Shown: positions 41,705-60,849 of the stretch, in pieces
How positions within the stretch are numbered: the stretch's first letter is position 1
Layout: every line of letters starts with the position of its first letter
Source of the DNA: Sulfobacillus acidophilus DSM 10332
GTDB lineage: Bacteria; Bacillota; Sulfobacillia; Sulfobacillales; Sulfobacillaceae
Direction of reading: 5' to 3'
Assembly: GCA_000237975.1 (NCBI GenBank)
Contig: CP003179.1
Span: 2,232,001 to 2,296,000 of the forward strand
DNA length: 64,000 bases
Position numbers and translations under genes: made by a program
Notes under the pieces: generated by a model
Told to the model about the DNA's origin: nothing
Databases searched by the model: none
The model's input: the letters and a program-made list of their open reading frames with translations, nothing else

Positions 41705-41881
41705 ATGAGCCATAACGTTTTCTGGACGACAGCCACAGCCATGGCCGCCATCGTTTACACGATTTTTCTTGAACAACCCCTTATTATGTTTTCTCGGGCG
41801 TTCCGTGATTTGTCCCGTTCGTCAGGGTTCGTTGAGCTACACCGTCAAGGGCAGGATAGAGGCCTTTATCACGTCAACTAA
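41705..41881 (+). CDS. Possible 58-residue membrane peptide
   Basis: Small ORF with GGGGGAG three bases before its ATG. It has one hydrophobic stretch (TATAMAAIVYTIFL) and a polar C-terminus. It overlaps the convergent 3' end of the adenine deaminase gene by 45 bases. No family is recognised, and the ribosome site is the main support. Confidence 0.3.
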   Translation: MSHNVFWTTATAMAAIVYTIFLEQPLIMFSRAFRDLSRSSGFVELHRQGQDRGLYHVN

Positions 41882-43615
41882 CCCGTACGTGGTAATGCGC
41901 ACTTCGGGAATGACAGGAAGCGCAATCAACGAAAATGTCATATAGGGCGCATTCAACGAAGAACCCAATCGGCGCCAAGCCTGCTTGAGCGCATCGAGTT
42001 CGTGCGCGACGGACGATGCCGATTCGGTGGATAAAAGGCCGGCAATCGGTAAGCGGACTATCGCGAGCACCTCCTGGTTCAATACCGCCACCAATCCGCC
42101 GCCCGCCTCAATCAAGACATTGGCCGCATAGGCCATGTCATGAAAATCAGCCCCCATGACAATGAGCTGATGACTGTCGTGGGCTACGCTGGACGCCACG
42201 GCGCCCTGTGTCAAGCCAAACCCGCGTACCAGGCCCTGTCCGATGGCACCGGACGCATGATGCCGGTCAATTACTGCCGCATAAGCCCAGTCGGCCCCAT
42301 CCGGCCGTTGAATGAGCCCCCGCTCGACGACGGCAGGGACATTCTCTAACCGGGTCATGACACTATTATTACTCACCGATACCGCACGAACCCACACCGG
42401 CCCCTTGACCCCCGGATCGGCATGAATCAATAAATCGTCCGGAGTAATCGGGTGGTTCACGCGTATGGAAGCGGTGAAGGCTGGCGGATAGGCGGTTGGA
42501 GGCAAATCAATGGTAAGCATGCCGTTTTCCGCCACGATGCGTCCTTGGACCAGTACCAAGGACGGTCGCATAGTCCGAAGGTCTGGGATGAGGCACAAAT
42601 CGGCAACCTTACCCGGAGCGACGCTGCCGAGCAAGTCTTCAAGATGAAAATAGCGGGCGGTATTGATGGTGGCCATTTGAATCGCGGCAACGGGATCTAC
42701 CCCTTCTTGGATAGCGCGACGCACGACATGATTTAAATGGCCTTCGTGAATTAAGGTCGACGGCTCCACATCATCGGTCACGAGCATGCATTGGTGAGGA
42801 TCCACTCCGTCTTCGGTGATGATTTTGATACATTCGGCAACATCTTTCCAGGCGGTTCCCTCCCGAATCATCACCATGATGCCCCTCCGGGCTTTTTCGA
42901 GTGCCTCGGCGCGGGTGGTCGACTCATGATCCGAATAAATGCCGGTTGCCGCATAGGCTTGAATAACCCGGGGATCGGCCGTCGGCAGATGGCCGGTGGC
43001 CACCAGACGTCGATCCCAGGTGGCTCGGATCTTTTCCAATACCGACGGGTCGCCGCGCAACACCCCAGGAAAATCCATCACCTCACTGAGGCCCACCACC
43101 CGCGGCAACCCGAGGCCCATTTCAACATCTTGCGGCCCGAGCACGATTCCGGGCCCTTCCATTCCCGGGGCCGCCGGCACGCATGACGGCATGGTGGTGA
43201 ATACCCGTAACGGTACATTTTCCGCTTCCTGTAACATCGCTTGGATGCCCGGCAAACCAAACACATTGGCCATTTCGTGCGGGTCCATGAACACGGTGGT
43301 GGTACCGTGCGGGAGTACCGCTCGGGCAAATTCCGTAACCGACAACATACTGCTTTCGATATGCATATGCCCGTCCATCAGTCCCGGAATCAGGTACTGT
43401 CCCCTCGCGTCCACCATCTGCGTATTGGCGCCGACGGCAGGTTCTCGCCCCACATAGGCGATGTGGCCGGAGTGAATCGCCACCGAAATATCGAACTCTA
43501 ATTCGCCCGTATGGACATTGACCAGCGTGGCATGGGAAATCACCAGATCAGCAGGCATATGACCCAATGCCACTTGCGATAGCCGGGCGCGCACGTCCGG
43601 TGTGTATTCCAACAT
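41837..43615 (-). CDS. ade: Adenine deaminase
   Basis: Deaminates adenine to hypoxanthine. The 592-residue amidohydrolase fits the Ade family in length and motifs: ISHATLVNVHTGELE, LIPGLMDGHMHIESSML with metal His residues, AVLPHGTTTVFMDPHEMANV, GHLPTADP, YSDHESTTRAEALEKARRG and VTDDVEPS. The ATG follows AAGGGGGAA. It diverges from the NCS1 permease gene at 43831 across a 215-base control region, which points to shared nucleobase regulation. Confidence 0.93.
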   Translation of the reverse strand: MLEYTPDVRARLSQVALGHMPADLVISHATLVNVHTGELEFDISVAIHSGHIAYVGREPAVGANTQMVDARGQYLIPGLMDGHMHIESSMLSVTEFARAVLPHGTTTVFMDPHEMANVFGLPGIQAMLQEAENVPLRVFTTMPSCVPAAPGMEGPGIVLGPQDVEMGLGLPRVVGLSEVMDFPGVLRGDPSVLEKIRATWDRRLVATGHLPTADPRVIQAYAATGIYSDHESTTRAEALEKARRGIMVMIREGTAWKDVAECIKIITEDGVDPHQCMLVTDDVEPSTLIHEGHLNHVVRRAIQEGVDPVAAIQMATINTARYFHLEDLLGSVAPGKVADLCLIPDLRTMRPSLVLVQGRIVAENGMLTIDLPPTAYPPAFTASIRVNHPITPDDLLIHADPGVKGPVWVRAVSVSNNSVMTRLENVPAVVERGLIQRPDGADWAYAAVIDRHHASGAIGQGLVRGFGLTQGAVASSVAHDSHQLIVMGADFHDMAYAANVLIEAGGGLVAVLNQEVLAIVRLPIAGLLSTESASSVAHELDALKQAWRRLGSSLNAPYMTFSLIALPVIPEVRITTYGLVDVIKASILPLTV

Positions 43616-43830: not shown

Positions 43831-45294
43831 ATGAAAGCTGCCGAAGCCACGGGCGATGTCGCTTTTCGCGTGGAAGCGCACGGGATTGACGTGATTCGAT
43901 CACAAGAGCGCCATGGTAAACCCAAAGAATTATTTTGGATTTGGCTCGCCGGCCAATTAACCTTTAGCGGATTCATTATCGGCCAGTTATTTACCCAAAT
44001 GGGGCTCAGCCTCACCGAGTCGTTGGTGGTCTCGGCGCTCCTAGCCCTCAGTTTTGTCGTGCTCGGCTGGGCCGGCCTGCCCGGACCGAAAGCCGGTACC
44101 GGCACGTTGACCATTACCCGTTCCGTCTTTGGGGTCAAAGGGAACGCCTTGCCCTCCGTTTTAAGTTGGCTCAACATGGTGGGCTGGGAAGCCGTAACCA
44201 TGGTGTTGACGAGTTATGCGTTTGTCAGCCTTTTTGGCGTACTGGGGTTACCCCATGAAGGTACCGGCCCCCTCATTATCGCGATTCTTTTAAGCATCGT
44301 ATTGACATTCAGCGTACCGATTCTCGGCCACGCCACGATTGTCGTCGCCCAGCGTTTTCTGGCCTATGGTCTGGGCTTACTCTCGATCATCATGTTTGGT
44401 GTCATCTTCCCTCGGGTTAACTGGCATTACGCCCCACCGCCATCGCATCTGTGGGCGTCCGGCGTCACCACCACCATGATTTTCGCCTTATCGATTGGCC
44501 TCATGTCGACAACCTTGTCCTGGACCAATTACGCCGCCGATTATACCCGGTACTTGCCGAAAGACAGTAACGGCCAGGCCATTGTCGGATATACCTGGCT
44601 CGGCGCTGGAATTGCCGCCTTTATCGTGCTGGCTTTAGGCGTGTTGTTGGGCACGTTTGTCAATCCGGAAGCGTACTCCCGAAATCCGGTCGCCGCCATT
44701 ATGGCCGTGTTACCCACCTGGTATGTCGTGCCGTTTTTATTCGTGGCCATCGTCGGACAAATTACCGCCAATTATTTGAACGCGTATAGTTCGGCCATGA
44801 GCTTTTTAGCCATCGGGTTTCCCATTCGGCGCTATGTGTCCGCCTTATTGGATGCCACGATTGCCCTGGCCATTTCTCTTTACGCCATCTTTTTGGCACC
44901 GCAGTTCGTCAATTTCTTTACCAACTTTCTGAGTCTCTCGGTATTAGTGATCGGGCCTTGGACGGCCATGTATCTGGTCAACCATTTTGTGCGACGAGGC
45001 GAATATGATCCCGAAAGCCTGGTCACGGTATCCCCGAAAAGCCGCTATTGGTTTCAAAACGGGGTCAATTGGGGACCCTTGATGATTTTTCTGCTATCGG
45101 CTTTTCTCGCGTTTTGGACGGTCAATTCCACGATGTGGGTAAGCCCGCTCTCCAAATCCCTGTTGGGGGGAATGGATATCAGTTCCTTTTCCGGCCCCTT
45201 GTTTGCCGGCGGGCTCTACTATCTCTACTGGCGCATGACCGAAAAAAGCCGGGCCCAAGTATTCCCGGCGAATGACGTACAACTCGCCGAATAA
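43831..45294 (+). CDS. NCS1-family nucleobase permease
   Basis: 487-residue, about twelve-helix transporter of the nucleobase:cation symporter-1 family, near CodB. FWIWLAGQLTFSGFIIGQLF at the N-terminus, GLPGPKAGTGTLTITRSVFG, LSWTNYAADYTRYLP and the region ITANYLNAYSS are characteristic. It precedes a molybdenum hydroxylase operon by 33 bases, so its substrate is probably uracil, cytosine or a purine. The ATG follows GGAGGTG by eight bases. Confidence 0.9.
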   Translation: MKAAEATGDVAFRVEAHGIDVIRSQERHGKPKELFWIWLAGQLTFSGFIIGQLFTQMGLSLTESLVVSALLALSFVVLGWAGLPGPKAGTGTLTITRSVFGVKGNALPSVLSWLNMVGWEAVTMVLTSYAFVSLFGVLGLPHEGTGPLIIAILLSIVLTFSVPILGHATIVVAQRFLAYGLGLLSIIMFGVIFPRVNWHYAPPPSHLWASGVTTTMIFALSIGLMSTTLSWTNYAADYTRYLPKDSNGQAIVGYTWLGAGIAAFIVLALGVLLGTFVNPEAYSRNPVAAIMAVLPTWYVVPFLFVAIVGQITANYLNAYSSAMSFLAIGFPIRRYVSALLDATIALAISLYAIFLAPQFVNFFTNFLSLSVLVIGPWTAMYLVNHFVRRGEYDPESLVTVSPKSRYWFQNGVNWGPLMIFLLSAFLAFWTVNSTMWVSPLSKSLLGGMDISSFSGPLFAGGLYYLYWRMTEKSRAQVFPANDVQLAE

Positions 45295-45327
45295 GGTCCG
45301 ACTATGCTTAAAGGAGGCCCCTGATCC

Positions 45328-45819
45328 ATGACCACCGAATTACCCTTGGACACCCGAAAAGTCCGCCTCACGGTCAATGACATCCCCTACGACCTCCTGG
45401 TGCCGAATGACGAGCGTTTACTGGAAACGCTCCGGGAACGTTTGCACCTTTTTAGCGCCCGCTACGGGTGTGGTTCCGGCCATTGCGGGTCCTGCGTGGT
45501 ATGGGTGGATCATAAGCCCGTTCCGAGTTGTCTGGTGTTGACCGGCAGGGTAAAAGGCAAGGTCACCACACTCGAAGGACTCGCCCAGGATCCCGCCATG
45601 CAGCGGTTGCTCGACGCATTTTCCGAGGAGCATGCGGCCCAATGCGGCTATTGTACTCCCGGGATGCTGATGTCGGCGCGCCATCGGCTAGAACAGTCCA
45701 ATGGCGAGCTCGACGAGGAAGCGTGGAAAGACGTGTTAGAAGGCCATGTGTGTCGTTGTACCGGATATTACGCGCCGCTACGGGCGTTGAAGCGGGTGAC
45801 GCCTCATGCAGTGGATTGA
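45328..45819 (+). CDS. Molybdenum hydroxylase, 2Fe-2S subunit (complex A)
   Basis: Small iron-sulfur subunit of a xanthine-dehydrogenase-type enzyme, 163 residues. The plant-type [2Fe-2S] site has Cys48, Cys53, Cys56 and Cys68 (YGCGSGHCGSC). The C-terminal helical [2Fe-2S] site has Cys106, Cys109, Cys142 and Cys144 (CGYCTPG and CRCTGY). It passes electrons between the Mo and FAD subunits encoded next. AAGGAGG lies about ten bases ahead of the ATG. Confidence 0.94.
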   Translation: MTTELPLDTRKVRLTVNDIPYDLLVPNDERLLETLRERLHLFSARYGCGSGHCGSCVVWVDHKPVPSCLVLTGRVKGKVTTLEGLAQDPAMQRLLDAFSEEHAAQCGYCTPGMLMSARHRLEQSNGELDEEAWKDVLEGHVCRCTGYYAPLRALKRVTPHAVD

Positions 45820-46591
45820 CATAAGTACCTTCAAGGCGTTGCGGCAAATGCTCGCCGAGGACGTCAAGATTCTGGGTGGCGGTACCAAATTGCTACAAGA
45901 GGGTCCCCTCCCAAATCGCGTGATGGACTTGTCCTCGCTGCCCATCGAACAAGGGTTATATCAGGCCCCGGACGGCTCGGTGCACATCGGTCCCCAAACC
46001 ACGCTCGAGGATCTGCTCAACTGGCCCGACACGCCAAACGATATTAAACGCGTGCTAAAAAAGATGGGGGCGGTGCCGTTTCGGAATCTGGCCACCGTCA
46101 TCGGTCGGCTGGCCAATCGGGAGGACATATCCGACTTATACCCGGTCATGCGCCTTTACCAAACGCAGGTGACGTTTGTCACGCCCATTACCGGCGTTCC
46201 TCAAGAGCGCCCATTGACGTGGGAATCCCCGGAACTCCCGGAGGCCTGGCTGGAAGTGGTGATCCCCCCGAAAACGTCCGCCTATCCCCTCGTCGAATTC
46301 CTCAAATTCGGCAAAAGCTCCCAATCGCGTACCCTTTTGAACGTCACGGCGGGGTTGCAACCGGTCCCTGCCACCCCCTTTTGGACGCTCACCCTCATCG
46401 TCTCGGGGATAACCCCGGCTCCTCAAGAGTGGCACTGGACAGAGAGCGGAGAGGCGATTTTTTCGGTCGTAACCGGTCAGTTGGGAGAGCGCTGTTTTTC
46501 GGTCACGGCCGATCCCTTTGAATGTCACCTGATCCGCAGTTATTGGGATATTTTGGCGCAACGTTTAGAAGAACGGTTAGGAGGTATCTGA
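45806..46591 (+). CDS. Molybdenum hydroxylase, FAD subunit (complex A)
   Basis: 261-residue divergent FAD-binding subunit. The N-terminal phosphate-binding loop reads KILGGGTKLLQEG, and VPFRNLATVIGRLANRED aligns to the second family motif (usually ending TvGGNiana). The rest is weakly conserved, so identity rests partly on its place between the [2Fe-2S] and Mo subunits. It overlaps both neighbours (14 bases and one base, TGATG). Confidence 0.85.
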   Translation: MQWIDISTFKALRQMLAEDVKILGGGTKLLQEGPLPNRVMDLSSLPIEQGLYQAPDGSVHIGPQTTLEDLLNWPDTPNDIKRVLKKMGAVPFRNLATVIGRLANREDISDLYPVMRLYQTQVTFVTPITGVPQERPLTWESPELPEAWLEVVIPPKTSAYPLVEFLKFGKSSQSRTLLNVTAGLQPVPATPFWTLTLIVSGITPAPQEWHWTESGEAIFSVVTGQLGERCFSVTADPFECHLIRSYWDILAQRLEERLGGI

Positions 46592-48774
46592 TGAGAACAT
46601 GGGCTTTGGCCACGCATGCCCGGTTTGCGCCGGATTTATTGGATCTCCAGCAAAACGCCTTGCGGCTGGGTATTGTGGAAGCCGCCGAATGTCCCGCCGA
46701 GGCCAGTTTATCCAATCGGGACGAGTTATTGGGTATTCCGGGGATTGTGGACGTCGTCACCGCCGAGGACCGACTCCCTGACCCCTATACCACTGCCGGC
46801 CAACCGGAACCGGAGCCTTCCGTCTACGACACCTTTTTAATTAACCCGGTAGTCCGCTATATCGGCGAGCCGGTGGCCTTCGTCGCGGCGGAAACCAAAG
46901 CGGCACTGGCCGAAGCCTTAGCACTCTCTCAGGTAAACTATCGACCGGTGACCGGCGCACTGCATTCCCGATGTCCGGATAACCTGGTCGATCGCTGGCA
47001 ACACAGCCACGGGGAGGCGCGCCCCGGCACCGATGTCTACATTACCCGTGCCAAAGTGCCCCGTGTCAGCCATGTCCAGCTGGAACCCCATGCCGCCATG
47101 GCCTATCCCGATTCCGAAGGGCGGATTGTAGTCGTCACGACCACCCAAGTTCCCTTTCATGTGCGGCGCATCGTCGCCCGGGCTTTGGGCCTGCCGGTCT
47201 CGCACGTGATTGTCCGTGCCACCGACGTTGGAGGGGGATTCGGAGGAAAACAAGAGGTAAGCATCGAGCCTTGGGTCGCGTGGTTAGCTCGGCGCACCGG
47301 CCGACCGGTCAAGCTGATTCTCTCCCGTCGGCAAGAATTTGTGCTCGGGCGCACCCGGCACGCCGCCGAGCTGCGGGTGAAAAGCGTTTGGAACGGCTTG
47401 AGCCTAGAGCAGCTCGATCTGGACGCCACCGTCACGACCGGTCCCTATGCCTCCCACGGCACCACCGTCGCCCATAATATGGGGTTGAAAACGTTACCTC
47501 TTTACCAAGCACGCTCCTATCGATTCGGCGCACAAATTCTCTATGCCCCGGGCCCCGTAGCCGGAGCCTTTCGCGGCTATGGCGGGCCGCAAGGGGCGAT
47601 GGCGGTGGAAACCCACATCAACGCGGTCGCGGCCGAAAAAGGGGTCGGGGCCTACGAGCTGCGCCAGCACATTTTGGCCCGTACCGGTCATCCCCTTGAC
47701 TTATTTCCTTCCCCGGACACGACCTGGCCGATTCGCTTTCATCATAACGAACCCCGCCGTCTGATGCGTAAAGTGGTTAAGCATAGCCAAGAGATCCTCG
47801 GTCCCTTGCGGCCGGACGAGGGCTTAGGGTTGGCACTGAGTCTTCAGGCCAGTGGCGTGCCCCACAGCGAACTGGCCGAAGTGTTACTCGGCGTTGACGA
47901 AGACGGCAGTCTCTGGGCCAAAACCGGTGCCATCGATATGGGCCAGGGATCGCGGGAGACCCTGTCGGCCATCGTGCGCCAGACGCTCGGGGTGTCGGAG
48001 GCGGTGCCCATTCGCTGGTCGATGGGAACAACCGGCGAAGGCGGATTTGACTACGGCAGCTATGCCTCCTCGACCACGTATGTGACCGGCTTGGCGGCCC
48101 AACAAGCGGCCCGGGACATCAAGCGGCAAATGACCGCCTTATATCGGAAACTCGCTCGCACGGAGACGTTGCCGCCCCTCAATTTCGGCTATCTTCCCTT
48201 GTGGCGTCAGCTCGCCTGGCAAAGTTTTTACGGCCGGTTTCGAAGCCCGCTGGGAGCCCGCGGCATCGCCGCCCCCCACGACTCGCCCGCACCGATTGCC
48301 GTGTGTGCCGTCCGGCTGACGGTAGATCCGCAACTCCTACAGGTGAATATTCGTCATATCACCTTAGGGGTGGACGTCGGCCGGGTGATTAATCCACCGG
48401 GACTTCGAGGCCAAATTGAAGGGGCGGTCGTCCAAGGATTGGGCTACGCACTCTGCGAATCGTTGGAAGTGGATCAAAATCATCACGTAACCACCCCATC
48501 GTTGTTTGACTATGGGATGATATCGCCGGTCGCATTACCCCCCTTAGACATCTTGATCGAAGACAGCCGAGAACACAGCGGGCCCGCTGGCGCAAAATCC
48601 GCCGGAGAAGTGGCTTTGGGCGCTATTGCGCCGGCGGTGGTACATGCCGTTCATCAGGCAACCGGTGCCTGGATCACCGAGCTGCCCGTCACCCCCCGCC
48701 GATTATGGCATGCCCTGAACCCGGAAAAGACGTCGTCCGCAGTGCCTGCTCTCGTCACCGATTCGCGCGCCTAA
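46591..48774 (+). CDS. Molybdenum hydroxylase, molybdopterin subunit (complex A)
   Basis: Catalytic Mo subunit, 727 residues, of the xanthine dehydrogenase family. It shows YIGEPVAFVAAETKAALAEA, DVGGGFGGKQEVSIEP (Mo-cofactor loop), GAFRGYGGPQ, GQGSRETL and AGEVALGAIAP with the catalytic Glu. The ATG at 46591 overlaps the FAD subunit stop (TGATG) and follows AGGAGG by six bases. The operon context, with a ring-opening amidohydrolase and cytosine deaminase nearby, suggests a uracil/thymine-type dehydrogenase giving barbiturate. Xanthine as substrate cannot be ruled out. Confidence 0.92.
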   Translation: MRTWALATHARFAPDLLDLQQNALRLGIVEAAECPAEASLSNRDELLGIPGIVDVVTAEDRLPDPYTTAGQPEPEPSVYDTFLINPVVRYIGEPVAFVAAETKAALAEALALSQVNYRPVTGALHSRCPDNLVDRWQHSHGEARPGTDVYITRAKVPRVSHVQLEPHAAMAYPDSEGRIVVVTTTQVPFHVRRIVARALGLPVSHVIVRATDVGGGFGGKQEVSIEPWVAWLARRTGRPVKLILSRRQEFVLGRTRHAAELRVKSVWNGLSLEQLDLDATVTTGPYASHGTTVAHNMGLKTLPLYQARSYRFGAQILYAPGPVAGAFRGYGGPQGAMAVETHINAVAAEKGVGAYELRQHILARTGHPLDLFPSPDTTWPIRFHHNEPRRLMRKVVKHSQEILGPLRPDEGLGLALSLQASGVPHSELAEVLLGVDEDGSLWAKTGAIDMGQGSRETLSAIVRQTLGVSEAVPIRWSMGTTGEGGFDYGSYASSTTYVTGLAAQQAARDIKRQMTALYRKLARTETLPPLNFGYLPLWRQLAWQSFYGRFRSPLGARGIAAPHDSPAPIAVCAVRLTVDPQLLQVNIRHITLGVDVGRVINPPGLRGQIEGAVVQGLGYALCESLEVDQNHHVTTPSLFDYGMISPVALPPLDILIEDSREHSGPAGAKSAGEVALGAIAPAVVHAVHQATGAWITELPVTPRRLWHALNPEKTSSAVPALVTDSRA

Positions 48775-48817
48775 AGCACCCCGCCCGTTATTACCCGTTA
48801 TTCAAGGAGGTTTTTCG

Positions 48818-49375
48818 ATGATCACCGATACTGAACTCATCATTCCCGTGATACCGGCCACCGAAGAAACGATTGCCCCCTTCGGCATCCTCTTAAGTCC
48901 GAACGTGTTAAAGCCCGGGCTTCCCATCCCGTTCTATCAAGGCAGCGTCGAAGAAGGCGCTAATTTGGACTTTGTGTGTAACGGGCGTCCGGTCATTCGC
49001 ACGGCCCGCATCTCGTATCGGGAACCGGAGGTCATCTGGCTTGAACACCACAAAATTTTGACACAAGTATTTATCGGATTGGGGAATGTCCCCTTTGTGA
49101 TGGTTCTGGGCGAACCGACATCAGAGTCCGTACCGGATTTAAATCGCGTCAAAGCCTTTTATTTCCCCGGTGGCCACGGGGTTATGCTGTGGCAAAAGGT
49201 GTGGCACGATTTTCCGTTAGCCGTTTCGGAACCGGTGACCATTTTTACGATCAATTCCGAAGAGGTCGTGGATGCCCTCGCAAGTCAACCGGTACCGCAA
49301 GACATGGCGACCGGCGATGTTTATAAACTGCATGTGAAAACCCATACGGGTAAAACCCTCCGGGTGAGCTTTTAA
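48818..49375 (+). CDS. Ureidoglycolate lyase (AllA)-family protein
   Basis: 185-residue cupin-like protein of the ureidoglycolate lyase family. WLEHHKILTQVFIGLGNVPF and PGGHGVMLWQKVWHDFPL match the family's conserved core. AllA turns ureidoglycolate into glyoxylate and urea. Here the neighbours suggest it may act on a related ureido acid such as ureidomalonate; this is inference. AAGGAGG stands eight bases before the ATG. Stop and next start overlap (TAATG). Confidence 0.85.
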   Translation: MITDTELIIPVIPATEETIAPFGILLSPNVLKPGLPIPFYQGSVEEGANLDFVCNGRPVIRTARISYREPEVIWLEHHKILTQVFIGLGNVPFVMVLGEPTSESVPDLNRVKAFYFPGGHGVMLWQKVWHDFPLAVSEPVTIFTINSEEVVDALASQPVPQDMATGDVYKLHVKTHTGKTLRVSF

Positions 49376-50430
49376 TGGAGCTGTCCGTACTGCGGGGTCT
49401 CATGCAGGACCCAGCCGATTTCTCCGAACTCACCGGCTGGATTCGGGAAGGACGCCTCAATCCACGGGATATTCTCGCGATTTTGGGTAAAACCGAAGGC
49501 AACGGAGGTCAAAACGACTTTACGCGAGAGTTGGCCACTGTCGCATGCCGGCAAGCATTGGCGGAGAACTCCTCGGAAGCGGACGTCATGTTGTCGTTTT
49601 CCGGAGGCACCGAAGGCGTGATAACTCCTCACTATTGGGTTTTTTCCCACCACGGTTCTTGGCCCTTAAATCCCAACCCCGAGAAACGGTTAGCGGCCGC
49701 CCGCGGGCAAACTCGGCGCTTCGCCCCCCACGAAGTGGGAACCTTGGCCATGGTTGAAGAGACCGCGCGGGTCGTGCGGCAGTTATTGGATGATGCCCGC
49801 ATCCATCCCCAAGACGTGCATTTTGTGCATATTAAAGGGGCCTTGCCGTCTCGGGTTTCGGGGGAATATCCGCGCAACACGATGGCCTACGCCCGTGGAG
49901 CTTCCGCGTTGGGGGTGGCGGTGGCTCTCGGCGAAATCGCGCCCGAAAAAATTCATGAGGACGCCATCCTTCGGGACTGGACCTTATATTCGAGTCGGGC
50001 CAGCACCTCCGCCAAGCCCGGCGTCGAGCGGTCGGATATTCTGGTATTGGGAAATTCGCCCTGGTGGAGCGGATCGCTTGTCAGCGACCATACCGTCATG
50101 CGTGACATGCTGGACCTCGAATCGGTGAAAAAAACGCTCTCTCGCTGGGGCGTGACCGGCTGTCCGTTGACTCCCGCGGAACAGGAACGCGTCGTGGCGG
50201 TATTTGCCAAAGCGGAGGCCGATCCTCAAAATTCTTTGCGAGGTTTTCGGCACACGATGCGAACCGACGACGATATTTCGGAGACGCGCTATGCGCGTTG
50301 CGTAATCGGCAGCGTGTTGGCGGGCTTTATGCAATCACCGTTCATATATGTGTCCACCCGCGCCGAACATCACGGACCGCCGGGCGGAGGCCCCGTCGCA
50401 TTGATATTGGCCGTCCCCAAGGCCGGATAG
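49375..50430 (+). CDS. Ring-opening amidohydrolase, barbiturase/cyanuric acid hydrolase family
   Basis: 351-residue member of the AtzD/TrzD/barbiturase family, which hydrolyses barbiturate to ureidomalonate or cyanurate to carboxybiuret. The family has three homologous repeats, each with a Ser-Lys pair. Seen here are LGKTEGNGGQNDF (Lys39), LSFSGGTEGVI (Ser76), HIKGALPSR (Lys154), YSSRASTSAKPG and, near the C-terminus, GPPGGGPVALI. Which of the two substrates applies cannot be decided from the sequence. The co-encoded molybdenum hydroxylase and cytosine deaminase favour barbiturate. Confidence 0.9.
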   Translation: MELSVLRGLMQDPADFSELTGWIREGRLNPRDILAILGKTEGNGGQNDFTRELATVACRQALAENSSEADVMLSFSGGTEGVITPHYWVFSHHGSWPLNPNPEKRLAAARGQTRRFAPHEVGTLAMVEETARVVRQLLDDARIHPQDVHFVHIKGALPSRVSGEYPRNTMAYARGASALGVAVALGEIAPEKIHEDAILRDWTLYSSRASTSAKPGVERSDILVLGNSPWWSGSLVSDHTVMRDMLDLESVKKTLSRWGVTGCPLTPAEQERVVAVFAKAEADPQNSLRGFRHTMRTDDDISETRYARCVIGSVLAGFMQSPFIYVSTRAEHHGPPGGGPVALILAVPKAG

Positions 50431-50453
50431 GTCATACTTTTTTGGGAGGTATT

Positions 50454-51320
50454 ATGAGACTTTGTCAATTCTATGCCGGCGAGACCGTACACGTCGGCTA
50501 CGATCTCAATGAAACGGTCCTGGGTGATTTGACCGAAGCCCTAAACACTTCCCACACGTTATTGGATTTTTTGACCGATCCGGACTTATTGAAGCGGGCC
50601 GTCGGCCACGATTGGAAAACCACGCCCGAGGCCCTCATTCCCATAACCGAGGTGCGTTGGGCACTGCCCGTGTCCAGTCCGTCGAAAATTATCGGCCTCG
50701 GGTTAAATTACCGACGGCACGTCGAGGAAACCCCGTATGCCCGACCCGATTACCCGGTGTATTTTCTCCGACTGCCCCATACCCTGGTAGCGCACCAGGA
50801 ACCTTTAAAAATTCCCCCAAAGTGGCCGACACTCGACTACGAAGGGGAACTGGCGGTCATTATCGGACGAGACGTGAATGGGCGGGACGACATCCCCTGG
50901 CAATCTGCAATCGCGGGTTACACCCTCTTTAATGACGCCTCAGTCCGCAGCTTACAATTTCGTGGACCACAATGGACGCTCGGCAAAAATTGCCCGGCCA
51001 CCGGCGCGTTTGGACCATGGGTGGTGACCCCTGATGCCCTACCCGAAGGACCAGACCATCTTCTGTTGGAAACCCGTATTAACCAAGAACTGGTGCAGCA
51101 GGGTAATACGGCCGATATGATATTTTCCGTGGGAGACATCATCCGTGATTTAGCTCAGGTTATACCGCTTAGTCGCGGAGACGTCATCTTGACGGGCACA
51201 CCCGATGGGGTGGGCTTTGCCCAAAAACCGCCACGCTATTTGGCTCCCGATGATTGGGTGCGAGTTCGGTGTCCTGCCATCGGCGAATTGGTCAACCCGG
51301 TCGTGTTAGCCGACGATTAA
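50454..51320 (+). CDS. Fumarylacetoacetate hydrolase (FAH)-family protein
   Basis: 288-residue FAH-fold enzyme. The conserved core is present: KIIGLGLNYRRHVEE, PTLDYEGELAVIIG with metal-binding Glu residues, GYTLFNDASVRSLQ, GKNCPATGAFGPW and DVILTGTPDGVGF. The family includes hydrolases and decarboxylases of small acids. Its step here is unknown; a role on the C3 product of pyrimidine opening is possible. The ATG at 50454 follows GGGAGG by four bases. Confidence 0.9.
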   Translation: MRLCQFYAGETVHVGYDLNETVLGDLTEALNTSHTLLDFLTDPDLLKRAVGHDWKTTPEALIPITEVRWALPVSSPSKIIGLGLNYRRHVEETPYARPDYPVYFLRLPHTLVAHQEPLKIPPKWPTLDYEGELAVIIGRDVNGRDDIPWQSAIAGYTLFNDASVRSLQFRGPQWTLGKNCPATGAFGPWVVTPDALPEGPDHLLLETRINQELVQQGNTADMIFSVGDIIRDLAQVIPLSRGDVILTGTPDGVGFAQKPPRYLAPDDWVRVRCPAIGELVNPVVLADD

Positions 51321-51347
51321 GCAACTCACTCAAAGGGGATGTGTCCA

Positions 51348-52547
51348 ATGAAAGATACCTGGCATGCCTTTATCGATCCCTCTTGTACGTTACCGCCGAT
51401 CCAAGACGGCCCCTTGTCGGGCACCCGATTTGCGGCCAAAGACGTCTTTGCGGTCAAGGGTTATCCCACCTCCGGCGGGAATCCCGATTGGTTTCGCACG
51501 CACCCGCCGGAAACGACCACTGCCCCCGCCATCCTCGCGTTGTTGAAAGCCGGCGCCGCCTTAGACGGCAAAACGCATACGGATGAATTGATGTACGGGT
51601 TAAACGGGGAAAACGTCCACTATGGTACTCCCGTGAACCCTAAAGCCCCCGACCGGATTCCGGGGGGATCGTCTTCGGGTTCAGCGGTTGCCGTCTCGGC
51701 GGGTATGGTTGACTTCGCTATTGGCACCGACACCGGCGGCTCCGTACGTATCCCGGCCAGCTACACGGGTATTTTTGGTATGAGGCCAACCGTCGGCCGA
51801 ACGACCCTGACCGGCGTAATCCCGCTGTCCCAGACCTTTGATACGGTCGGATGGTTTAGCCGCGATCCCGGCTTGCTCGCGTTAGTGGGTTCGGTTTTGC
51901 TCTCGGGTCACTCCCGACCTGCCCAATTTCGCCGCGTGATCATCGCGTCAGACGCCTGGGCGCTGATGGAGCCACCCTATCGCCCGATGTTGCAGTCTTG
52001 GGTCGACCGCATCGTGCAAAGATTTGAGCAGGTGGAAGAGGAACCGATCGCACCCGAAGGATTGGACCAATGGGCGCAGGGCTTCCGCGTCATTCAAGGC
52101 TATGACATTTGGCAGAACTTTGGCGAATGGATTACCCATACGAAACCCCGATTCGGTCCGGGATTTCGTGAACGGTTTGCCTGGACCGCCACCATCACGG
52201 TAGAAGAACGCGATATGTGGAACGCGAAGCGCCAAATCTGGCAATCGAACCTGGCCGAACGGTTAGGCACGGACACGATCATCCTGTTGCCGACGGCGCC
52301 GGGACCGGCGCCTCAAAGAAACACCCCCTTACCGATCTTGAACGCATTTCGCGACCGGGTGTTGCAACTGACAGCAATCGCCGGACTAGGCGGATTGCCG
52401 CAGATCTCCCTACCCGGCGTGGTTAGTCCCGAGGGCTATCCGCTGGGACTGTCCGTCATCGGCGGATCCGGCACCGACGAAGCCCTCATGGAGTGGGTCC
52501 AACAGCAAATGGCCGAATGGGGGATAGACCATGCGCACGCGGATTAA
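51348..52547 (+). CDS. Amidase-signature enzyme, candidate ureidomalonase or carboxybiuret/ureido hydrolase
   Basis: 399-residue amidase signature protein with the Ser-cisSer-Lys triad: Lys31 in GTRFAAKDVF, the cis-Ser in PGGSSSGSAVAVS near residue 108 and the nucleophile Ser in DTGGSVRIPAS near 132. It is much shorter than allophanate hydrolase. In the barbiturate pathway a ureido-acid amidase releases urea and malonate; in the cyanurate route AtzE has this fold. The ATG at 51348 has AAGGGG nine bases before it; an upstream ATG at 51339 is too close. It overlaps the next gene by 17 bases. Confidence 0.9.
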   Translation: MKDTWHAFIDPSCTLPPIQDGPLSGTRFAAKDVFAVKGYPTSGGNPDWFRTHPPETTTAPAILALLKAGAALDGKTHTDELMYGLNGENVHYGTPVNPKAPDRIPGGSSSGSAVAVSAGMVDFAIGTDTGGSVRIPASYTGIFGMRPTVGRTTLTGVIPLSQTFDTVGWFSRDPGLLALVGSVLLSGHSRPAQFRRVIIASDAWALMEPPYRPMLQSWVDRIVQRFEQVEEEPIAPEGLDQWAQGFRVIQGYDIWQNFGEWITHTKPRFGPGFRERFAWTATITVEERDMWNAKRQIWQSNLAERLGTDTIILLPTAPGPAPQRNTPLPILNAFRDRVLQLTAIAGLGGLPQISLPGVVSPEGYPLGLSVIGGSGTDEALMEWVQQQMAEWGIDHAHAD

Positions 52548-53859
52548 GAATGCCTGGGTAGTCACAATGAATGCCCAAAGAGACGTGTTACCCGCCACCG
52601 ATATCTGGGTGGAAGACGATCGGATAGTGGGAATCGGTCGATATTCCCTACCGGCCGATCACGTCATTGACGCCACCGGCTATGTCGCCATGCCCGGCCT
52701 CATTCAACCCCATATTCATTTATGCCAAACCCTCTTTCGAGGCGCAGCCGACGATTTGCGATTATTAGATTGGCTACAACAAAAAATTTGGCCCTTGGAG
52801 TCGGCGTTGGATGCATCCGCTATGCGGGCAGCCGCCGATCTGGGCCTTGCTGAGTTAATTCAAAGCGGGACGACCACCATCTTAGATATGGGATCGGTGG
52901 CTCACACCGACCAAATTTTTGAAGCCGTCCAAGCGAGCGGATTACGCGCATGGGCCGGTAAATGTCTCATGGACCGCCCAAACCCATGGCTACAAGAATC
53001 CCGCCACGATGCCATCCACGAAAGTCGAACACTGATTGAACGTTGGCACGGGGCCGATAACGGGCGAATACAGTACGCGTTGGCCCCTCGCTTCACTTTG
53101 TCGGTTACCGATGCGCTGTGGGAGGAGACGCTCGAGCTAGCTCTCGCCACCGGGGTGGTCATTCATACCCACGCCAGTGAAACCCTGGACGAAGTGGACG
53201 AGGCTAAGCGTCTTCACGTCTTAGCCCCCTTAGCCCACCTGAATGCGTTGGACGTCACCCGAGCCCATGTCGTGGCGGCGCATGGGGTCTGGCTCACGGA
53301 TGAAGAGCTGGCCATCGCCGAGGAAAAACGCGTGGGATTAGCCCATTGCCCCTCCTCCAATTTAAAATTGGGCTCAGGTATCGCCCCGGTTCCCCGTTGG
53401 CTTCAAGCGGGTCTAACCTTTGGCATCGCAGCCGACGGAGCCCCCTGCAATAATTGGCTGGATGGATTTACGGAAATGCGTATGGCCTCCCTGCTCGCCA
53501 AGCCGGCCTTTGGGGCCCAAGCCTTTCCTGCGGAAGAAGTCCTGGCCAAAGCCACGATAGGCGGGGCCGAAGTGTTGGGAGCCCAGCATACCATCGGCAG
53601 TCTGGAAGTCGGCAAACAAGCCGACCTGATATTAGTCGACATCCAAGGGCTTCATCATACACCGGATGCCGTGGCCAGCATTTACTCGCAGTTGGTCTAT
53701 CAAACCCGTGCCACCGATGTCCACCTCACCATGGTAGCCGGTCGCATCCTCTACCACGACGGTCAGTTTTTCACCATGAATCCCGAATCCGTACGGGCCA
53801 ATGCCCGTAGCGCACTTAAGCGGACCGTCGAAAAGGCCTATGACAAAGGTTTTGTATAA
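52531..53859 (+). CDS. TRZ/ATZ-family amidohydrolase (aminohydrolase)
   Basis: 442-residue amidohydrolase related to 8-oxoguanine, guanine and triazine deaminases. It has LIQPHIHLCQTLFRG (metal HxH), HTHASETLDEVDE (metal His), AAHGVWLTDEEL, HCPSSNLKLGSG and the metal Asp in ADGAPCNN. It likely removes an amino group from a nucleobase-like heterocycle. Its position at the end of the operon fits deamination of a substrate that enters it. GGGGGAT precedes the ATG. Confidence 0.9.
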   Translation: MRTRIKNAWVVTMNAQRDVLPATDIWVEDDRIVGIGRYSLPADHVIDATGYVAMPGLIQPHIHLCQTLFRGAADDLRLLDWLQQKIWPLESALDASAMRAAADLGLAELIQSGTTTILDMGSVAHTDQIFEAVQASGLRAWAGKCLMDRPNPWLQESRHDAIHESRTLIERWHGADNGRIQYALAPRFTLSVTDALWEETLELALATGVVIHTHASETLDEVDEAKRLHVLAPLAHLNALDVTRAHVVAAHGVWLTDEELAIAEEKRVGLAHCPSSNLKLGSGIAPVPRWLQAGLTFGIAADGAPCNNWLDGFTEMRMASLLAKPAFGAQAFPAEEVLAKATIGGAEVLGAQHTIGSLEVGKQADLILVDIQGLHHTPDAVASIYSQLVYQTRATDVHLTMVAGRILYHDGQFFTMNPESVRANARSALKRTVEKAYDKGFV

Positions 53860-55400: not shown

Positions 55401-56846
55401 TTATCGGGAACCGGCGAGTCGGACATCCGGGCTTTCGGCGGTCTGCATCAGCCCGAGGTAGACAATAAAGGCCACGATAAAGCCGACGAACCAGGAATAG
55501 TTAAATAACCACGCCAACGCCGGCACCACCTTGCCTATAAGCGCGATCACCACCCCGCCCGCCAGTGCGGCAATCGCGCGCCAGTTATAGCCATTGGCGT
55601 AATAGTAGCGTCCTCCTTTGGCATAGAGCTCCACTACCGCCAACGTGGTCTTCCGAAATACCCAATAATCGGCAATCAAAATTCCGGCAATCGGCCCGAG
55701 AAAGCCTCCGTAGACGTTCAGCCAACTGAAAATGTAAATGTGAGGATTCGAAATGAGCAGCCACGGCACCATCACAATGCCCAAAATCCCGGTCAGAAGA
55801 CCCGCGCGGGAAAAATTCAGGTGCTTCGGAAACAACTGGATAAAGTCATAGGCCGGCGATACGACGTTGGCCGCCACATTCACCGACAAGGTGGCCACCA
55901 CCACCGCCCCTAACGAGATGAGCAACAACAAGACATTATGAAAGTGGCCCAAAAGCGTCACCGGATCGGCAATGGCTTGATGAAAAACGACGATGGTTGC
56001 CGACGTGACGAGCACGCCAATAGCGGAAAATACCGTCATGGTGGTGGGGAGTCCTAGCGTCTGCCCCCATATCTGGGCTTTTTGACTTTTGGCGAACCGC
56101 GTAAAATCCGGGATGTTCAACGACAAGGTTGCCCAATTGCCTACCACACTGGTTAAAGCCGGGATTTCCACAGCCCATAAAGCCGCCCCGTGCACCTTAG
56201 CCGGTTGATGCAACATCGGCCCGAAACCGTGCGCCGCATTATAGGCCCAGAGGAGAAGCCCAATCCCGAGCAGCAGCACCAACGGTCCCGCCCACGCTTC
56301 AAACCGGCGGACCGCATCAATCCCGTGATAGATGATCCAAATATTTAAAAACCAAAACAGCAGAAAACTCACCCACCCCCCAAAATCTAAACCGACAAAC
56401 GTAAAGGCGGTCGACAGGTGGGCCCAACCGGGAATCAGCATCGATAAAAACATCTGAACCGCCTGACCGCCAATCGCAGCGTTGATCCCGAACCAGCCCG
56501 CCGCCACCAACGCCCGCAATAAGGCCGGCACGCCGGCGCCGACGCCCCCGAAGGACGCCCGGGCATAGACCGGAAACGGAATCCCGTATTGGGTGCCGGC
56601 ATGGGAATTCAGTAAAATCGGCACGAGCACAATGAGAGTCCCCACCAACACCGTTAAAATGGCTTCCCACCAGCTAAGCCCTAACGCAATGAACCCTCCT
56701 GCCATCATGTAGGTGGAGACGTTATGGGCCATCCCAATCCAAAGGGTGAGGTAATTATATAAAGTCCATTGCCTTTGAGACGACGTCGTCGGCAATAAAT
56801 CCCGATTGGCTATATCCACTTCCGGTTCAGATAACGGGTGAGTCAT
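55401..56846 (-). CDS. NCS1-family permease, allantoin/hydantoin/cytosine type
   Basis: 481-residue, about twelve-helix nucleobase:cation symporter. QWTLYNYLTLWIGMAHNVST at the N-terminus, ASFGGVGAGVPALLRALVAAG, NWATLSLNIPDFTRFAKSQK and VYGGFLGPIAGILIADYWV match the PucI/HyuP branch. The ATG at 56846 has GAAGGAG nine bases upstream; the frame further upstream (to 56966) is not needed. It is co-directional with the second molybdenum hydroxylase, which it follows by about 130 bases. Confidence 0.88.
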   Translation of the reverse strand: MTHPLSEPEVDIANRDLLPTTSSQRQWTLYNYLTLWIGMAHNVSTYMMAGGFIALGLSWWEAILTVLVGTLIVLVPILLNSHAGTQYGIPFPVYARASFGGVGAGVPALLRALVAAGWFGINAAIGGQAVQMFLSMLIPGWAHLSTAFTFVGLDFGGWVSFLLFWFLNIWIIYHGIDAVRRFEAWAGPLVLLLGIGLLLWAYNAAHGFGPMLHQPAKVHGAALWAVEIPALTSVVGNWATLSLNIPDFTRFAKSQKAQIWGQTLGLPTTMTVFSAIGVLVTSATIVVFHQAIADPVTLLGHFHNVLLLLISLGAVVVATLSVNVAANVVSPAYDFIQLFPKHLNFSRAGLLTGILGIVMVPWLLISNPHIYIFSWLNVYGGFLGPIAGILIADYWVFRKTTLAVVELYAKGGRYYYANGYNWRAIAALAGGVVIALIGKVVPALAWLFNYSWFVGFIVAFIVYLGLMQTAESPDVRLAGSR

Positions 56847-56975
56847 TTCACACGCTCCTTCTTCAAAATCGGCGATAACCCTATGGGGACAGGCGAGCAC
56901 ACCACGTACGGAGCACGGGACTATTGTTCCTTGGTCACCACGGAAGACCGAAGTTTTTAGAGACAATGGTTCCTG

Positions 56976-59279
56976 TTACTTTTGACGCATTTGGCGCCAA
57001 ATTTTATCGGCGGTGAGGGGCAAAGAACGCACGTGATCCCCGGATGCCAACGCGTCGGCCACCGCATTAGCTACCGCCGGTGCCACCGGAGAAATGGCCG
57101 GCTCCCCGATGCCCCGGGCGTGAAAAGGTCCCCGCCCTTCACCGGATTCCAAAATAATCACCTTAATGTCCGGCACATCGGGAGCCACCGGCGCCATATA
57201 TTGGCTAAATAGCGAAGTCAGGCATTGCCCCGATTGATAGACCACTTCTTCTGAGAGCGCATATCCGAGCCCTTGGGCAACGCCGCCCAAAATCTGCCCT
57301 TTCACGCTGACGGGATTAATGGCGACCCCTACATCATGGCTGGCGGCATATTGTAAGAGCACGACCTGCCCGGTTTCCTCATCAATTTCCAGGTCGACAC
57401 CATGACATCCAAACGTAAAATCAGGAAAGGTTTTCATGGCCCGTCCCTCTACATTGTCATACTTGGGCCCAACAGGCGCGTAAAAAGTCGTATGAACTTC
57501 CAATGGGCGCTGAAGAGCGGTGGCGGCCCGATAGATTTCGGCAAACCCAACCGTTTGACCGGTTGAGGAAACTGCCCGGTGATCGTCGAGGTGCCAGTTG
57601 GCGGTTCCCCACGTGTCCCGGACCACACCTAAAATCACGTCCTTTAATTCGGATGCGGCTTGGTAGACAGCATTGCCCGACATATAGAGCTGCCGAGTCG
57701 CAAAGGTCCCTCCCGCCAGCGGGGTCAATGCGGAATCGCCATAATAGGGACGCACCATATCCAGCGGTACCCCTAAAATTTCCGCAGTAATCTGGCACAA
57801 ACTAAACGCTTGACCGCCCCCAATATCCGGCACCCCAATTCGCAACACCACACTGCCGTCCGATTCGACATTCATCCAGCAGGAAGCCTGGTCTTGAAAC
57901 CAGACCGTCCTCCCATACGGTTGCATGGTACAGGCAATCCCTCGCCCAACCCGTCTCCCCGGTTGCGAAGGATACGGTTTGGGCCCCAAAGCGGACAGTA
58001 CCTCGGATAACGCTTCGGGCAACATCACCCGCGTTTCTTGTACCTCGCCGGTGGCCAAGACATCGCCCTGGGCGATAAAATGCTGACGCCGAAAGCTGAT
58101 CGGGTCACGGTTCAACGCCTGAGCCAGTTCATCGATGAACTGTTCGTATCCCACTGCCATTTGCATTGCGCCAAACCCCCGAAACGCGCTGGTCGGCACG
58201 TTATGGGTATAGACCGCCCGTGCCTTAACCGCGACATGTTCAATTCGGTAAGGACCCGTCGCCACAACGGCCGCGGCAAAAACCACCCGAGGCGACAAGA
58301 GAGCGTAGGCACCCGCGTCGGCCAGGATATCCACTTGCATCCCGGCGATTTCACCGGCAGGTGTCACCCAGACATCGTAGGTCATCCTAAACGGATGCCG
58401 TTTAGGCCGTGCTATCAGAGACTCTTGCCTTGACCACACCATCTTCACCGGCCGCCGAGTAATCCAAACTCCAATGGCAACATACGGTTCCACCGTCATG
58501 TCTTCTTTGCCGCCGAAACCGCCCCCAACGTAGGGGGCGATAACCCGCACCCGATTATCCGGAAGGTTTAGCATGCGGGCAATTGCCCGATAATGTTCCA
58601 ACACTTGCGTCGTGCACCGAAGCGTCAGAATCCCGTCATTATCCAGCCATCCCACCCCGGCCTCCGGCTCTAAATAAAGATGATCGACATATTGGGTGGT
58701 GTACGAGCGCGAAAAATGCCGTAGTTCCGGATTGTCCTTAATACCAGCTAAGTTTCCTTTGCGGACATTCCACTCCACCACGAGATTGCCGGTGGCATGC
58801 ACCAAAACCGCTTCCGGTTCTAGCGCGTCCAACGGGTCATGAACGGCCGGTAATTCCTCGTACTCGATATCCACGGCTTGGGCGGCATAATCAGCGGCAT
58901 CTGACGATTCGGCCAACACGAGGCAAATGGGTTCCCCTACGTAACGAACCTCGTCATCTTGAAACACCCGGTGTTGAGCGATAAGTTGCCCCAGGCCGGC
59001 CGGATCATCGTAAAACTGATTGACAGGCACGTCGGCGGCACTGACAATCCGCACCACGCCCGGCACCTGATACGCCCGAGAAAAATCCAGGCGACGAATT
59101 TTGGCATGCGGATAGATTGATCGCACCAATTTACCGTATAACATGCCTGGCATAACCCAATCGGCGCTGTAGAGCACTTCCCCGGCCACTTTGCGGCGTA
59201 CGTCATCTCTCACCACCGGGCGTCCAATGACCCGAAACGCGATCCCTTCCCGCTCATCTAGGCGGACGTTGCCGGCCAT
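56976..59279 (-). CDS. Molybdenum hydroxylase, molybdopterin subunit (complex B)
   Basis: 767-residue catalytic Mo subunit of the xanthine dehydrogenase family: VRYVGEPICLVLAESSDAA, YVGGGFGGKEDMTVEP, SAFRGFGAMQMAVGYEQFI, DIGGGQAFSLCQI and RGIGEPAISPVAPA with the catalytic Glu. The ATG at 59279 follows AGAGGTGAT and overlaps the [2Fe-2S] gene by 22 bases. Subunit order (FAD, 2Fe-2S, Mo) differs from complex A. Substrate unknown; a purine such as hypoxanthine/xanthine is plausible since adenine deaminase is encoded nearby. Confidence 0.93.
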   Translation of the reverse strand: MAGNVRLDEREGIAFRVIGRPVVRDDVRRKVAGEVLYSADWVMPGMLYGKLVRSIYPHAKIRRLDFSRAYQVPGVVRIVSAADVPVNQFYDDPAGLGQLIAQHRVFQDDEVRYVGEPICLVLAESSDAADYAAQAVDIEYEELPAVHDPLDALEPEAVLVHATGNLVVEWNVRKGNLAGIKDNPELRHFSRSYTTQYVDHLYLEPEAGVGWLDNDGILTLRCTTQVLEHYRAIARMLNLPDNRVRVIAPYVGGGFGGKEDMTVEPYVAIGVWITRRPVKMVWSRQESLIARPKRHPFRMTYDVWVTPAGEIAGMQVDILADAGAYALLSPRVVFAAAVVATGPYRIEHVAVKARAVYTHNVPTSAFRGFGAMQMAVGYEQFIDELAQALNRDPISFRRQHFIAQGDVLATGEVQETRVMLPEALSEVLSALGPKPYPSQPGRRVGRGIACTMQPYGRTVWFQDQASCWMNVESDGSVVLRIGVPDIGGGQAFSLCQITAEILGVPLDMVRPYYGDSALTPLAGGTFATRQLYMSGNAVYQAASELKDVILGVVRDTWGTANWHLDDHRAVSSTGQTVGFAEIYRAATALQRPLEVHTTFYAPVGPKYDNVEGRAMKTFPDFTFGCHGVDLEIDEETGQVVLLQYAASHDVGVAINPVSVKGQILGGVAQGLGYALSEEVVYQSGQCLTSLFSQYMAPVAPDVPDIKVIILESGEGRGPFHARGIGEPAISPVAPAVANAVADALASGDHVRSLPLTADKIWRQMRQK

Positions 59280-59731
59280 AATGCCATCACCTCTTCTATC
59301 GCATCGACAATCGGTTGGTATCCGGTACAACGACAGATATGACCGGCTATCGCCTCTCGTATCTCCTTTCGGGTCAGAGAGTGACCTTGATGGACTAACG
59401 CAAAAGCGGTAGCGAGTAGTCCCGGGGTGCAAAACCCACACTGGGCCGCTTGATTCACACTGAAACGGTCCTTCAGAAGCTCCCAAAGCGCGGCAAATTC
59501 CGTGCTTTTAACCGTGGTAACGGCTTGTTGGTCCACTTGTGCGGCCAAGGTGATACACGAGGCGCGGGGCTCCCCGTCTACAAGTACGACACAAGCACCA
59601 CACGCCCCCTCTCCGCAACCATACTTGACCTCGGTCAAGGCCAATTGGTCGCGCAAAACCGCCAACAAGGTTTCGTGGCCGGCGATTTCGCAGCTTGTCG
59701 GCACTTGGTTGATGGTCAACGTGATCTTCAT
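59258..59731 (-). CDS. Molybdenum hydroxylase, 2Fe-2S subunit (complex B)
   Basis: 157-residue iron-sulfur subunit with Cys39, Cys44, Cys47, Cys59 (YGCGEGACGAC) and the second cluster Cys98, Cys101, Cys133, Cys135 (CGFCTPG, CRCTGY). It overlaps the FAD gene by four bases (ATGA) and the Mo gene by 22. Confidence 0.94.
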   Translation of the reverse strand: MKITLTINQVPTSCEIAGHETLLAVLRDQLALTEVKYGCGEGACGACVVLVDGEPRASCITLAAQVDQQAVTTVKSTEFAALWELLKDRFSVNQAAQCGFCTPGLLATAFALVHQGHSLTRKEIREAIAGHICRCTGYQPIVDAIEEVMALWPATSA

Positions 59732-60615: not shown

Positions 60616-60849
60616 CCACCTCATGACCGACATAGATTCTATCATGGCGAACACAACGAATTCCTATTTGTATGTCAGCTATTATGATGACCTTAACACG
60701 TATGGTCGCGTGATTCTATTGTGTTAATTGCTGAACCCATTTCACCGATTGTGGTTTTATGCCAATAGACGGGGATACCGGGGTTTTTTACACTCTTCCC
60801 TAAAGAATAGGCGTTGATGTCAGGTTATTGGGTAAAGGAGGCATTTTTC
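60616..60849. promoter_or_regulatory. Divergent control region with repeated GATTCTAT elements
   Basis: GATTCTAT occurs at 60635-60642 and again at 60712-60719. At the first site the context is CATAGATTCTATCATG, containing the palindrome ATAGA-T-TCTAT. The ATAGATTCT core is identical to 43788-43796 in the control region of the other nucleobase operon. No clear sigma-A promoter is recognised. A shared regulator of the nucleobase genes is suggested but not shown. Confidence 0.4.

Follow-up and report, generated by a model that had tools for sequence, protein, structure and literature searches.

The DNA considered here is a 64,000-nucleotide stretch of Sulfobacillus acidophilus DSM 10332 (contig CP003179.1, positions 2,232,001 to 2,296,000; referred to below as the window), in which nine genes of the plus strand, separated by short or negative gaps, follow each other at 43831-53859 in the order NCS1 permease, 2Fe-2S, flavin adenine dinucleotide (FAD) and molybdenum subunits of a hydroxylase, AllA-like protein, ring-opening amidohydrolase, FAH-family protein, amidase and aminohydrolase (Table 1). 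The original prediction described the gene types and coordinates correctly, although it counted eight genes, and its view of a coherent heterocycle-degrading operon with a ring-opening enzyme of the AtzD/barbiturase family is supported. Five further genomes of the Sulfobacillus family (L032, L034, L039, L112 and L113) show a largely similar order of genes, so that the arrangement is not due to chance. Scans for consensus promoters and terminators gave matches no commoner than in shuffled sequence.

Table 1 Genes of the operon and its divergent upstream neighbour (positions in the window; profile scores in bits)
Feature	Position	Strand	Profile evidence
Adenine deaminase, divergent upstream neighbour	41837..43615	-	TIGR01178 521 bits vs cut-off 472
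NCS1-family nucleobase:cation symporter, 487 aa	43831..45294	+	PF02133 131 bits, E 5e-38; TIGR00800 far under cut-off
2Fe-2S subunit of molybdenum hydroxylase	45328..45819	+	PF01799 and PF00111; top NCBIfam match xanthine dehydrogenase iron-sulphur subunit, below cut-off
FAD subunit of molybdenum hydroxylase, divergent	45806..46591	+	PF00941 45 bits
Mo subunit (molybdopterin-binding)	46591..48774	+	PF02738, PF20256, PF01315; top NCBIfam match XdhA 375 bits vs cut-off 780
AllA-like protein, distinct conserved subfamily	48818..49375	+	PF04115 49.6 bits vs 23
Group IV Toblerone-fold ring-opening amidohydrolase, 351 aa	49375..50430	+	PF09663 391 bits; NF052395 366.3 vs 360
FAH-family protein	50454..51320	+	PF01557 193 bits
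Amidase-signature amidase, PRK08310 type	51339..52547	+	NF006169 470 bits vs cut-off 391
TRZ/ATZ-type aminohydrolase, 5'-deoxyadenosine deaminase family	52531..53859	+	NF005557 530.6 bits vs cut-off 522

The ring-opening enzyme is the only member of the AtzD/TrzD/barbiturase (Toblerone) family found in its genome (3.56 Mb in two contigs, the larger of 3,472,898 bp). It belongs to this family by a full-length PF09663 match and by the conserved Ser-Lys-Arg sets, as it keeps K39/R51/S76, K154/R174/S212, K279/S327 and the third-domain arginines. Six groups have been defined within the family on the basis of five active-site positions (Peat et al. 2013, PMC3758960): groups I-III (cyanurate) have R195, T321, R325, G345 and G346, group VI (barbiturase) has N195, H321, K325, V345 and S/A346, and group IV, formed by Acidithiobacillus and S. 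acidophilus, with strains DSM 10332 and TPY both listed, has R195, M/T321, R325, T345 and R346. Neither a function nor a gene context was given to group IV in that paper, in which its active site was described as unlike that of either known activity and a role tied to acidophile physiology was guessed; a later report on this group was not found in the literature searched. The window protein reads ...YVSTRAEHHGPPGGGP, which gives T345-R346, and both R195 and R325 are kept, so that the group IV signature is matched at 195, 325, 345 and 346, position 321 lying in a variable loop that was not scored separately.

Relatives were gathered from plasmids and from GTDB genomes; in the genome contigs they were recovered by an alignment-based scan, a single-protein scan having given none. 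In an IQ-TREE phylogeny of 73 sequences, among them the barbiturase 5hwe and characterised cyanurate hydrolases, 28 proteins of the S-T-R type are split from the rest by a branch supported at 100/100, and the barbiturases form a separate 100/100 group. The ring-opener shares the fold family, the Ser-Lys dyads and the domain arginines with AtzD/TrzD of groups I-III at some 40-48% identity, whereas group IV has T-R for G-G after the third catalytic serine, K-P for G-x-E after the second (S-x-K-P for S-x-G-x-E) and K-[GA]-A for K-C-P. The published cyanurate hydrolase motif S-G-G-x-E-x-Q-G-P-x-G-G-G-P (PMC9118981) fails at three positions in the window protein, which reads S-T-R-A-E-H-H-G-P-P-G-G-G-P, and is broken in every group IV member. 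Judged from clade and active-site residues, the enzyme is a member of group IV and probably neither a barbiturase nor a typical cyanurate hydrolase. The proposed barbiturase identity is not supported, and the phylogeny suggested as a check places the protein with neither the barbiturases nor the characterised cyanurate hydrolases. Another divergent Toblerone group, marked by SGGTEHQ and an altered G-G-G-P tail, occurs in two Sulfobacillus-family metagenome-assembled genomes (MAGs; L115 and L026), one of its genes adjoining an FAH-family gene.

What sets group IV further apart is a constant partner. Of the 27 group IV loci that lie outside the window, 26 have a gene for the AllA-like protein directly next to the ring-opener gene (25 separate open reading frames (ORFs), plus L048, in which it lies in frame behind an ApbA-like ORF), L033 being the locus that lacks it, and none was detected in the fetched flanks of 67 other family members. 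Fisher's test gives p ~1e-20 when L048 is scored as negative, as the script did, although the rows are related and the value is not a strict probability. The loci are spread over Bacillota, Acidithiobacillia, Myxococcales, Acidiferrobacter-like MAGs and MAGs of Cyanobacteria, Melainabacteria, Chloroflexi and Acidobacteria. The core of the operon is a fixed two-gene unit of AllA-like protein and group IV hydrolase, around which permeases, deaminases, molybdenum hydroxylases and amidases vary by lineage. A paper joining a ring-opening amidohydrolase with a ureidoglycolate lyase was not found in the literature searched. In L048 (166-1824) the ApbA/PanE-like and AllA-like proteins are encoded in one open frame without a stop, and an overlap of about 30 bases joins the corresponding genes of L040 and L041.

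The AllA-like proteins of the window and of A. caldus are 60% identical, and the subfamily has invariant E46, R61, R64, R68, E76, H78, Q83, H130 and D131. Against the AllA models of NCBIfam it reaches 19-33 bits, with cut-offs of 160-315. A structure model of the protein, predicted with pLDDT 89, finds its best matches among AllA structures (Z 16.6-18.8; Foldseek E 3e-9 to 2e-8), followed by DUF4867. The core E-x-H...Q and W-H residues of ureidoglycolate lyase are retained, whereas identity to AllA is only about 22% and the subfamily has its own blocks GLxIPFYxGSVEEG, RTARIxxR, WHDFP and NSxEVV. A role as cupin dioxygenase is disfavoured, as cupin dioxygenases reach only Z ~8; since the best fold matches are AllA structures, a lyase is preferred. 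By analogy the protein may at most act in the manner of AllA, which does not imply that it is a ureidoglycolate lyase.

The context of the pair in other acidophiles points towards purines. In Acidithiobacillus, where the loci are chromosomal (L037, L038 and L045-L047) or, with a partial set, located on A. caldus megaplasmids (L030 and L134), the pair stands in operons with uptake genes (TonB-dependent receptor, ExbB/TonB and NCS1) and genes for a guanine deaminase-like protein (310 bits vs 375), an adenosine deaminase over its cut-off and a NUP nucleoside phosphorylase-type protein. These operons further hold a xanthine dehydrogenase (XDH)-type molybdenum hydroxylase, XdhC, a MobA-like protein, the HpxXYZ/AtzGEH set (DUF4089/AtzG, AtzE/HpxY and AtzH/HpxZ) and a gamma-glutamyltransferase (GGT) homologue. 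Gene content varies from copy to copy, the L054 cluster having no molybdenum enzyme. The closest solved relative of the GGT homologue, with the scores of two chains summed, is 5hft of K. pneumoniae, which we take to be the oxamate amidohydrolase HpxW, and no other GGT was found in these genomes. Three Acidiferrobacter-like MAGs (L052, L062 and L089) combine the pair with a molybdenum enzyme and HpxW-like, guanine deaminase-like and BiuH-like genes (404 bits vs 370 for the last in L062), to which L052 and L062 add XdhC and NCS1. With this, group IV as described in 2013 is extended to several more phyla, and a constant AllA-like partner and a purine-linked context are new for this uncharacterised branch of a characterised fold; together they leave a short list of substrates, so that a neglected group becomes testable. 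The purine reading, mentioned only in passing in the original prediction, is better supported than the pyrimidine one.

Standard enzymes for the breakdown of urate were searched by profile in 18 pair-bearing genomes, several of which are MAGs, and the absences rest on these profile searches. Uricase, PuuD and 2-oxo-4-hydroxy-4-carboxy-5-ureidoimidazoline (OHCU) decarboxylase gave no match in any of them, and HpxO was over its cut-off in none, sub-threshold HpxO-like flavoproteins being present in some. The 18 genomes are therefore without detectable standard post-urate enzymes, and the enzyme set of the canonical oxidative route by uricase or HpxO was recovered over cut-off in none of them. 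Searches for allantoinase pick up generic cyclic amidohydrolases, with a match over cut-off in one genome (G392). The HpxXYZ-like and HpxW-like enzymes with which the Acidithiobacillus operons end are a point of likeness to the Klebsiella hpx route and the allFGH branch of E. coli (oxalurate to oxamate), but in the pair-bearing genomes the Toblerone and AllA-like proteins take the place of uricase, HpxO over cut-off and OHCU decarboxylase.

Taken together, the operon may serve to import a nucleobase-like compound and degrade it for nitrogen, the AllA-like protein and the group IV enzyme acting on an oxidised cyclic ureide in purine-side scavenging; we hold this interpretation tentatively, with rather less than even confidence. 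We infer that the route belongs to purine rather than to pyrimidine or triazine catabolism, and the substrate and single steps given here are likewise conjectural. The NCS1 protein would import the base, the aminohydrolase would deaminate it and the molybdenum enzyme would hydroxylate it, and a further oxidation would precede the AllA-like step. AllA frees urea from a carbinol-linked ureide. Acting as this lyase does, the AllA-like protein could release urea from a ureido-carbinol, possibly an oxidised urate derivative such as 5-hydroxypseudourate or 5-hydroxyallantoin, to leave alloxan, parabanate or a similar cyclic ureide whose carbonyls are adjacent. Such ureides have the row of carbonyls that the Toblerone fold binds, and the group IV enzyme might cleave one ring amide by the Ser-Lys mechanism of the family to give an oxalurate-type acyl-urea. 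In barbiturase, Val at position 345 intrudes on the active-site space (Peat, PMC3758960); Thr345 and the neighbouring Arg346 of group IV would suit an oxygen at C5. The acyl-urea would fit an amidase of the AtzE/HpxY, BiuH or PRK08310 type, the last of which would remove the terminal nitrogen here and AtzE/HpxXYZ or BiuH-type enzymes in other lineages, and in Acidithiobacillus HpxW would finish by converting oxamate to oxalate. The gene order in that genus resembles the order of the steps: uptake, deamination, phosphorolysis, Mo-hydroxylation, AllA-like protein, ring-opener, ureide amidase and HpxW.

Urate and singlet oxygen give parabanate, which at neutral pH hydrolyses only slowly, to oxalurate, and below pH 5 is stable (PMC5703782), and for this reason a dedicated enzyme is plausible. 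The purine routes surveyed in the introduction of PMC12507026 do not contain this enzyme set. It can be envisaged that acidophiles and other bacteria degrade purines (urate) by an undescribed uricase-independent route, with an AllA-like lyase and a group IV alloxanase or parabanase replacing uricase, allantoinase and allantoicase and feeding oxalurate-type ureides to amidases of the AtzE/HpxY, BiuH or PRK08310 type, but in this specific form the proposal is doubtful. If true, bacteria would have a further way of breaking down purines, and this enzyme family of three-fold symmetry would have a third class of substrate.

Several observations weigh against a purine role. Sulfobacillus and Acidithiobacillus share only the AllA-like/ring-opener core, the molybdenum enzyme, permease, deaminase and amidase not being clear orthologues, and the substrate in Sulfobacillus could therefore differ. 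Where the pair occurs in MAGs of Cyanobacteria, Chloroflexi, Acidobacteria and other groups, it is found with a PanE-like reductase or MtnA and a fusion of an alpha/beta-hydrolase with a thiamine pyrophosphate (TPP) enzyme, and neither XDH nor purine genes were found near these loci. For the oxidation of urate after the XDH step no enzyme was identified in the pair operons, and the window's genome encodes a 183-bit HpxO-like flavoprotein elsewhere. The ring-opener also passes, narrowly, the NCBIfam model for cyanuric acid amidohydrolase (NF052395). Because HpxXYZ equals AtzGEH by sequence (the AtzH of pADPe is itself named HpxZ; 68% identical), these genes cannot tell oxalurate from carboxybiuret, and their use as evidence for oxalurate was dropped.

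A different cyclic ureide or imide as substrate, such as an oxidised hydantoin, a pterin or a thiamine-pyrimidine derivative, with the Acidithiobacillus purine genes merely co-regulated for salvage, is unlikely. In its favour, the pair occurs in phyla where purine genes are absent from its surroundings and its neighbours are a PanE-like reductase and a TPP enzyme, one copy being in frame with the reductase ORF, and the superfamily of the 5'-deoxyadenosine deaminase family has varied substrates. However, both Acidithiobacillus and the Acidiferrobacter-like MAGs group XDH-type, XdhC, guanine deaminase-like and HpxW-like genes with the pair. The TPP-enzyme contexts on plasmids revealed no common substrate.

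The oxidative pyrimidine route, in which the molybdenum enzyme would convert uracil to barbiturate, the ring-opener would be a barbiturase and the amidase a ureidomalonase, has become improbable, even though every step has an enzyme of the right class. Two genes of the cytosine deaminase type are close by (63228, and L123:9373), and AtzE-like amidases could fit, ureidomalonate resembling carboxybiuret in shape. The remote similarity of the amidase to malonamidase E2 extends over the full length, but was set aside as support for ureidomalonate since 2dc0, GatA and AtzE score higher. The barbiturase residues N195, H321, K325 and V345 are not found in the ring-opener, which lies in a separate clade, and the AllA-like protein has no step in this route, as the original prediction had already remarked for the known pathways. 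In addition, the locus of a barbiturase orthologue in Nonomuraea lacks, within 6 kb, matches to the remaining proteins of the window operon or of related operons, whereas the orthologues of the pair in Acidithiobacillus lie inside purine operons.

Highly improbable, finally, is a cyanurate or azauracil route, with a cyanuric acid hydrolase fed by triazine deamination or Mo-hydroxylation and an amidase for carboxybiuret or biuret, since in spite of the NF052395 score, cyanurate hydrolases as nearest solved structures, AtzGEH-like genes after the ring-opener in Acidithiobacillus and a BiuH-like gene over cut-off in L062, the cyanurate motif is broken, allophanate hydrolase is over its cut-off neither in the window's genome, which argues against cyanurate and biuret, nor in any of the five Sulfobacillus-family genomes tested (6/18 genomes have one), the Acidithiobacillus operon ends with HpxW and not AtzF, and XDH, nucleoside phosphorylase and adenosine deaminase would be senseless for triazines.

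With respect to the other enzymes, the NCS1 permease has an orthologue at the equivalent place in L034 (769 bits). The ORF of the Mo subunit was listed from 46522, but the start is most likely the ATG at 46591, which overlaps the stop of the FAD gene by one base (TGATG). Its motifs GGGFGGKQ, AFRGYGGPQ and AGEV compare with GGGFGNKQ, AMRGYGAPQ and LGEP in E. coli XdhA, and at the equivalents of bovine Glu802, Arg880 and Glu1261 it has Gln, Arg and Glu, as E. coli XdhA does, while A. caldus has Glu, Arg and Glu. Every equivalog score of the Mo subunits is below cut-off, and the XdhA pattern with Gln for Glu802 is compatible with purine hydroxylation without proving it. The FAH gene, listed from 50298, likely starts at the ATG at 50454, with GGGAGG just upstream. 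It is present in L032, L034 and L039 and missing from L112 and L113, i.e. from two of six Sulfobacillus-family operons that are otherwise similar, so that FAH, suggested in the original prediction as a possible extension of the pathway, is rejected as an essential new step; the protein is probably accessory. The amidase is kept in all five fuller Sulfobacillus-family loci, and its solved relatives, all remote, include AtzE, malonamidase E2 and allophanate hydrolase. The nearest solved relative of the aminohydrolase is of the methylthioadenosine/S-adenosylhomocysteine deaminase type.

Cyanurate-hydrolase-type ring-openers occur beside FdrA and DUF1116 proteins, relatives of the oxamic transcarbamylase AllFGH of E. 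coli, in eleven loci (L031, L055, L057, L060, L061, L072, L078, L081, L116, L117 and L118) from enterobacterial plasmids (one with KPC-2), Moorella, Clostridia, Eggerthellaceae and archaeal MAGs. An NCS2 permease, DUF2877 and carbamate kinase are often added, which suggests an energy-conserving carbamoyl-phosphate route for the ureide made by these ring-openers.

Around the operon, the adenine deaminase gene has no counterpart at the loci of the Sulfobacillus-family relatives. The predicted cytosine deaminase at 63229 is real (63228, plus strand; PRK09230, 521 bits vs cut-off 483) and runs beyond the window edge. Between it and the operon lies, on the minus strand, a second group of NCS1 and Mo-hydroxylase genes (55401-60654), whose Mo subunit has Glu, Arg and Glu at the three bovine XDH positions. 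Between an amidohydrolase gene and the cytosine deaminase gene, 62058-63182 encodes a protein 25-27% identical to DUF1116 proteins (E. coli YlbE/AllG and a plasmid copy). The island of nucleobase genes seems to continue past the end of the window, where L123:2858-10695 encodes in one direction a creatininase-like and a GlcD-like protein, an ABC transporter ATPase, a CocE/NonD hydrolase and a second cytosine deaminase-like protein.

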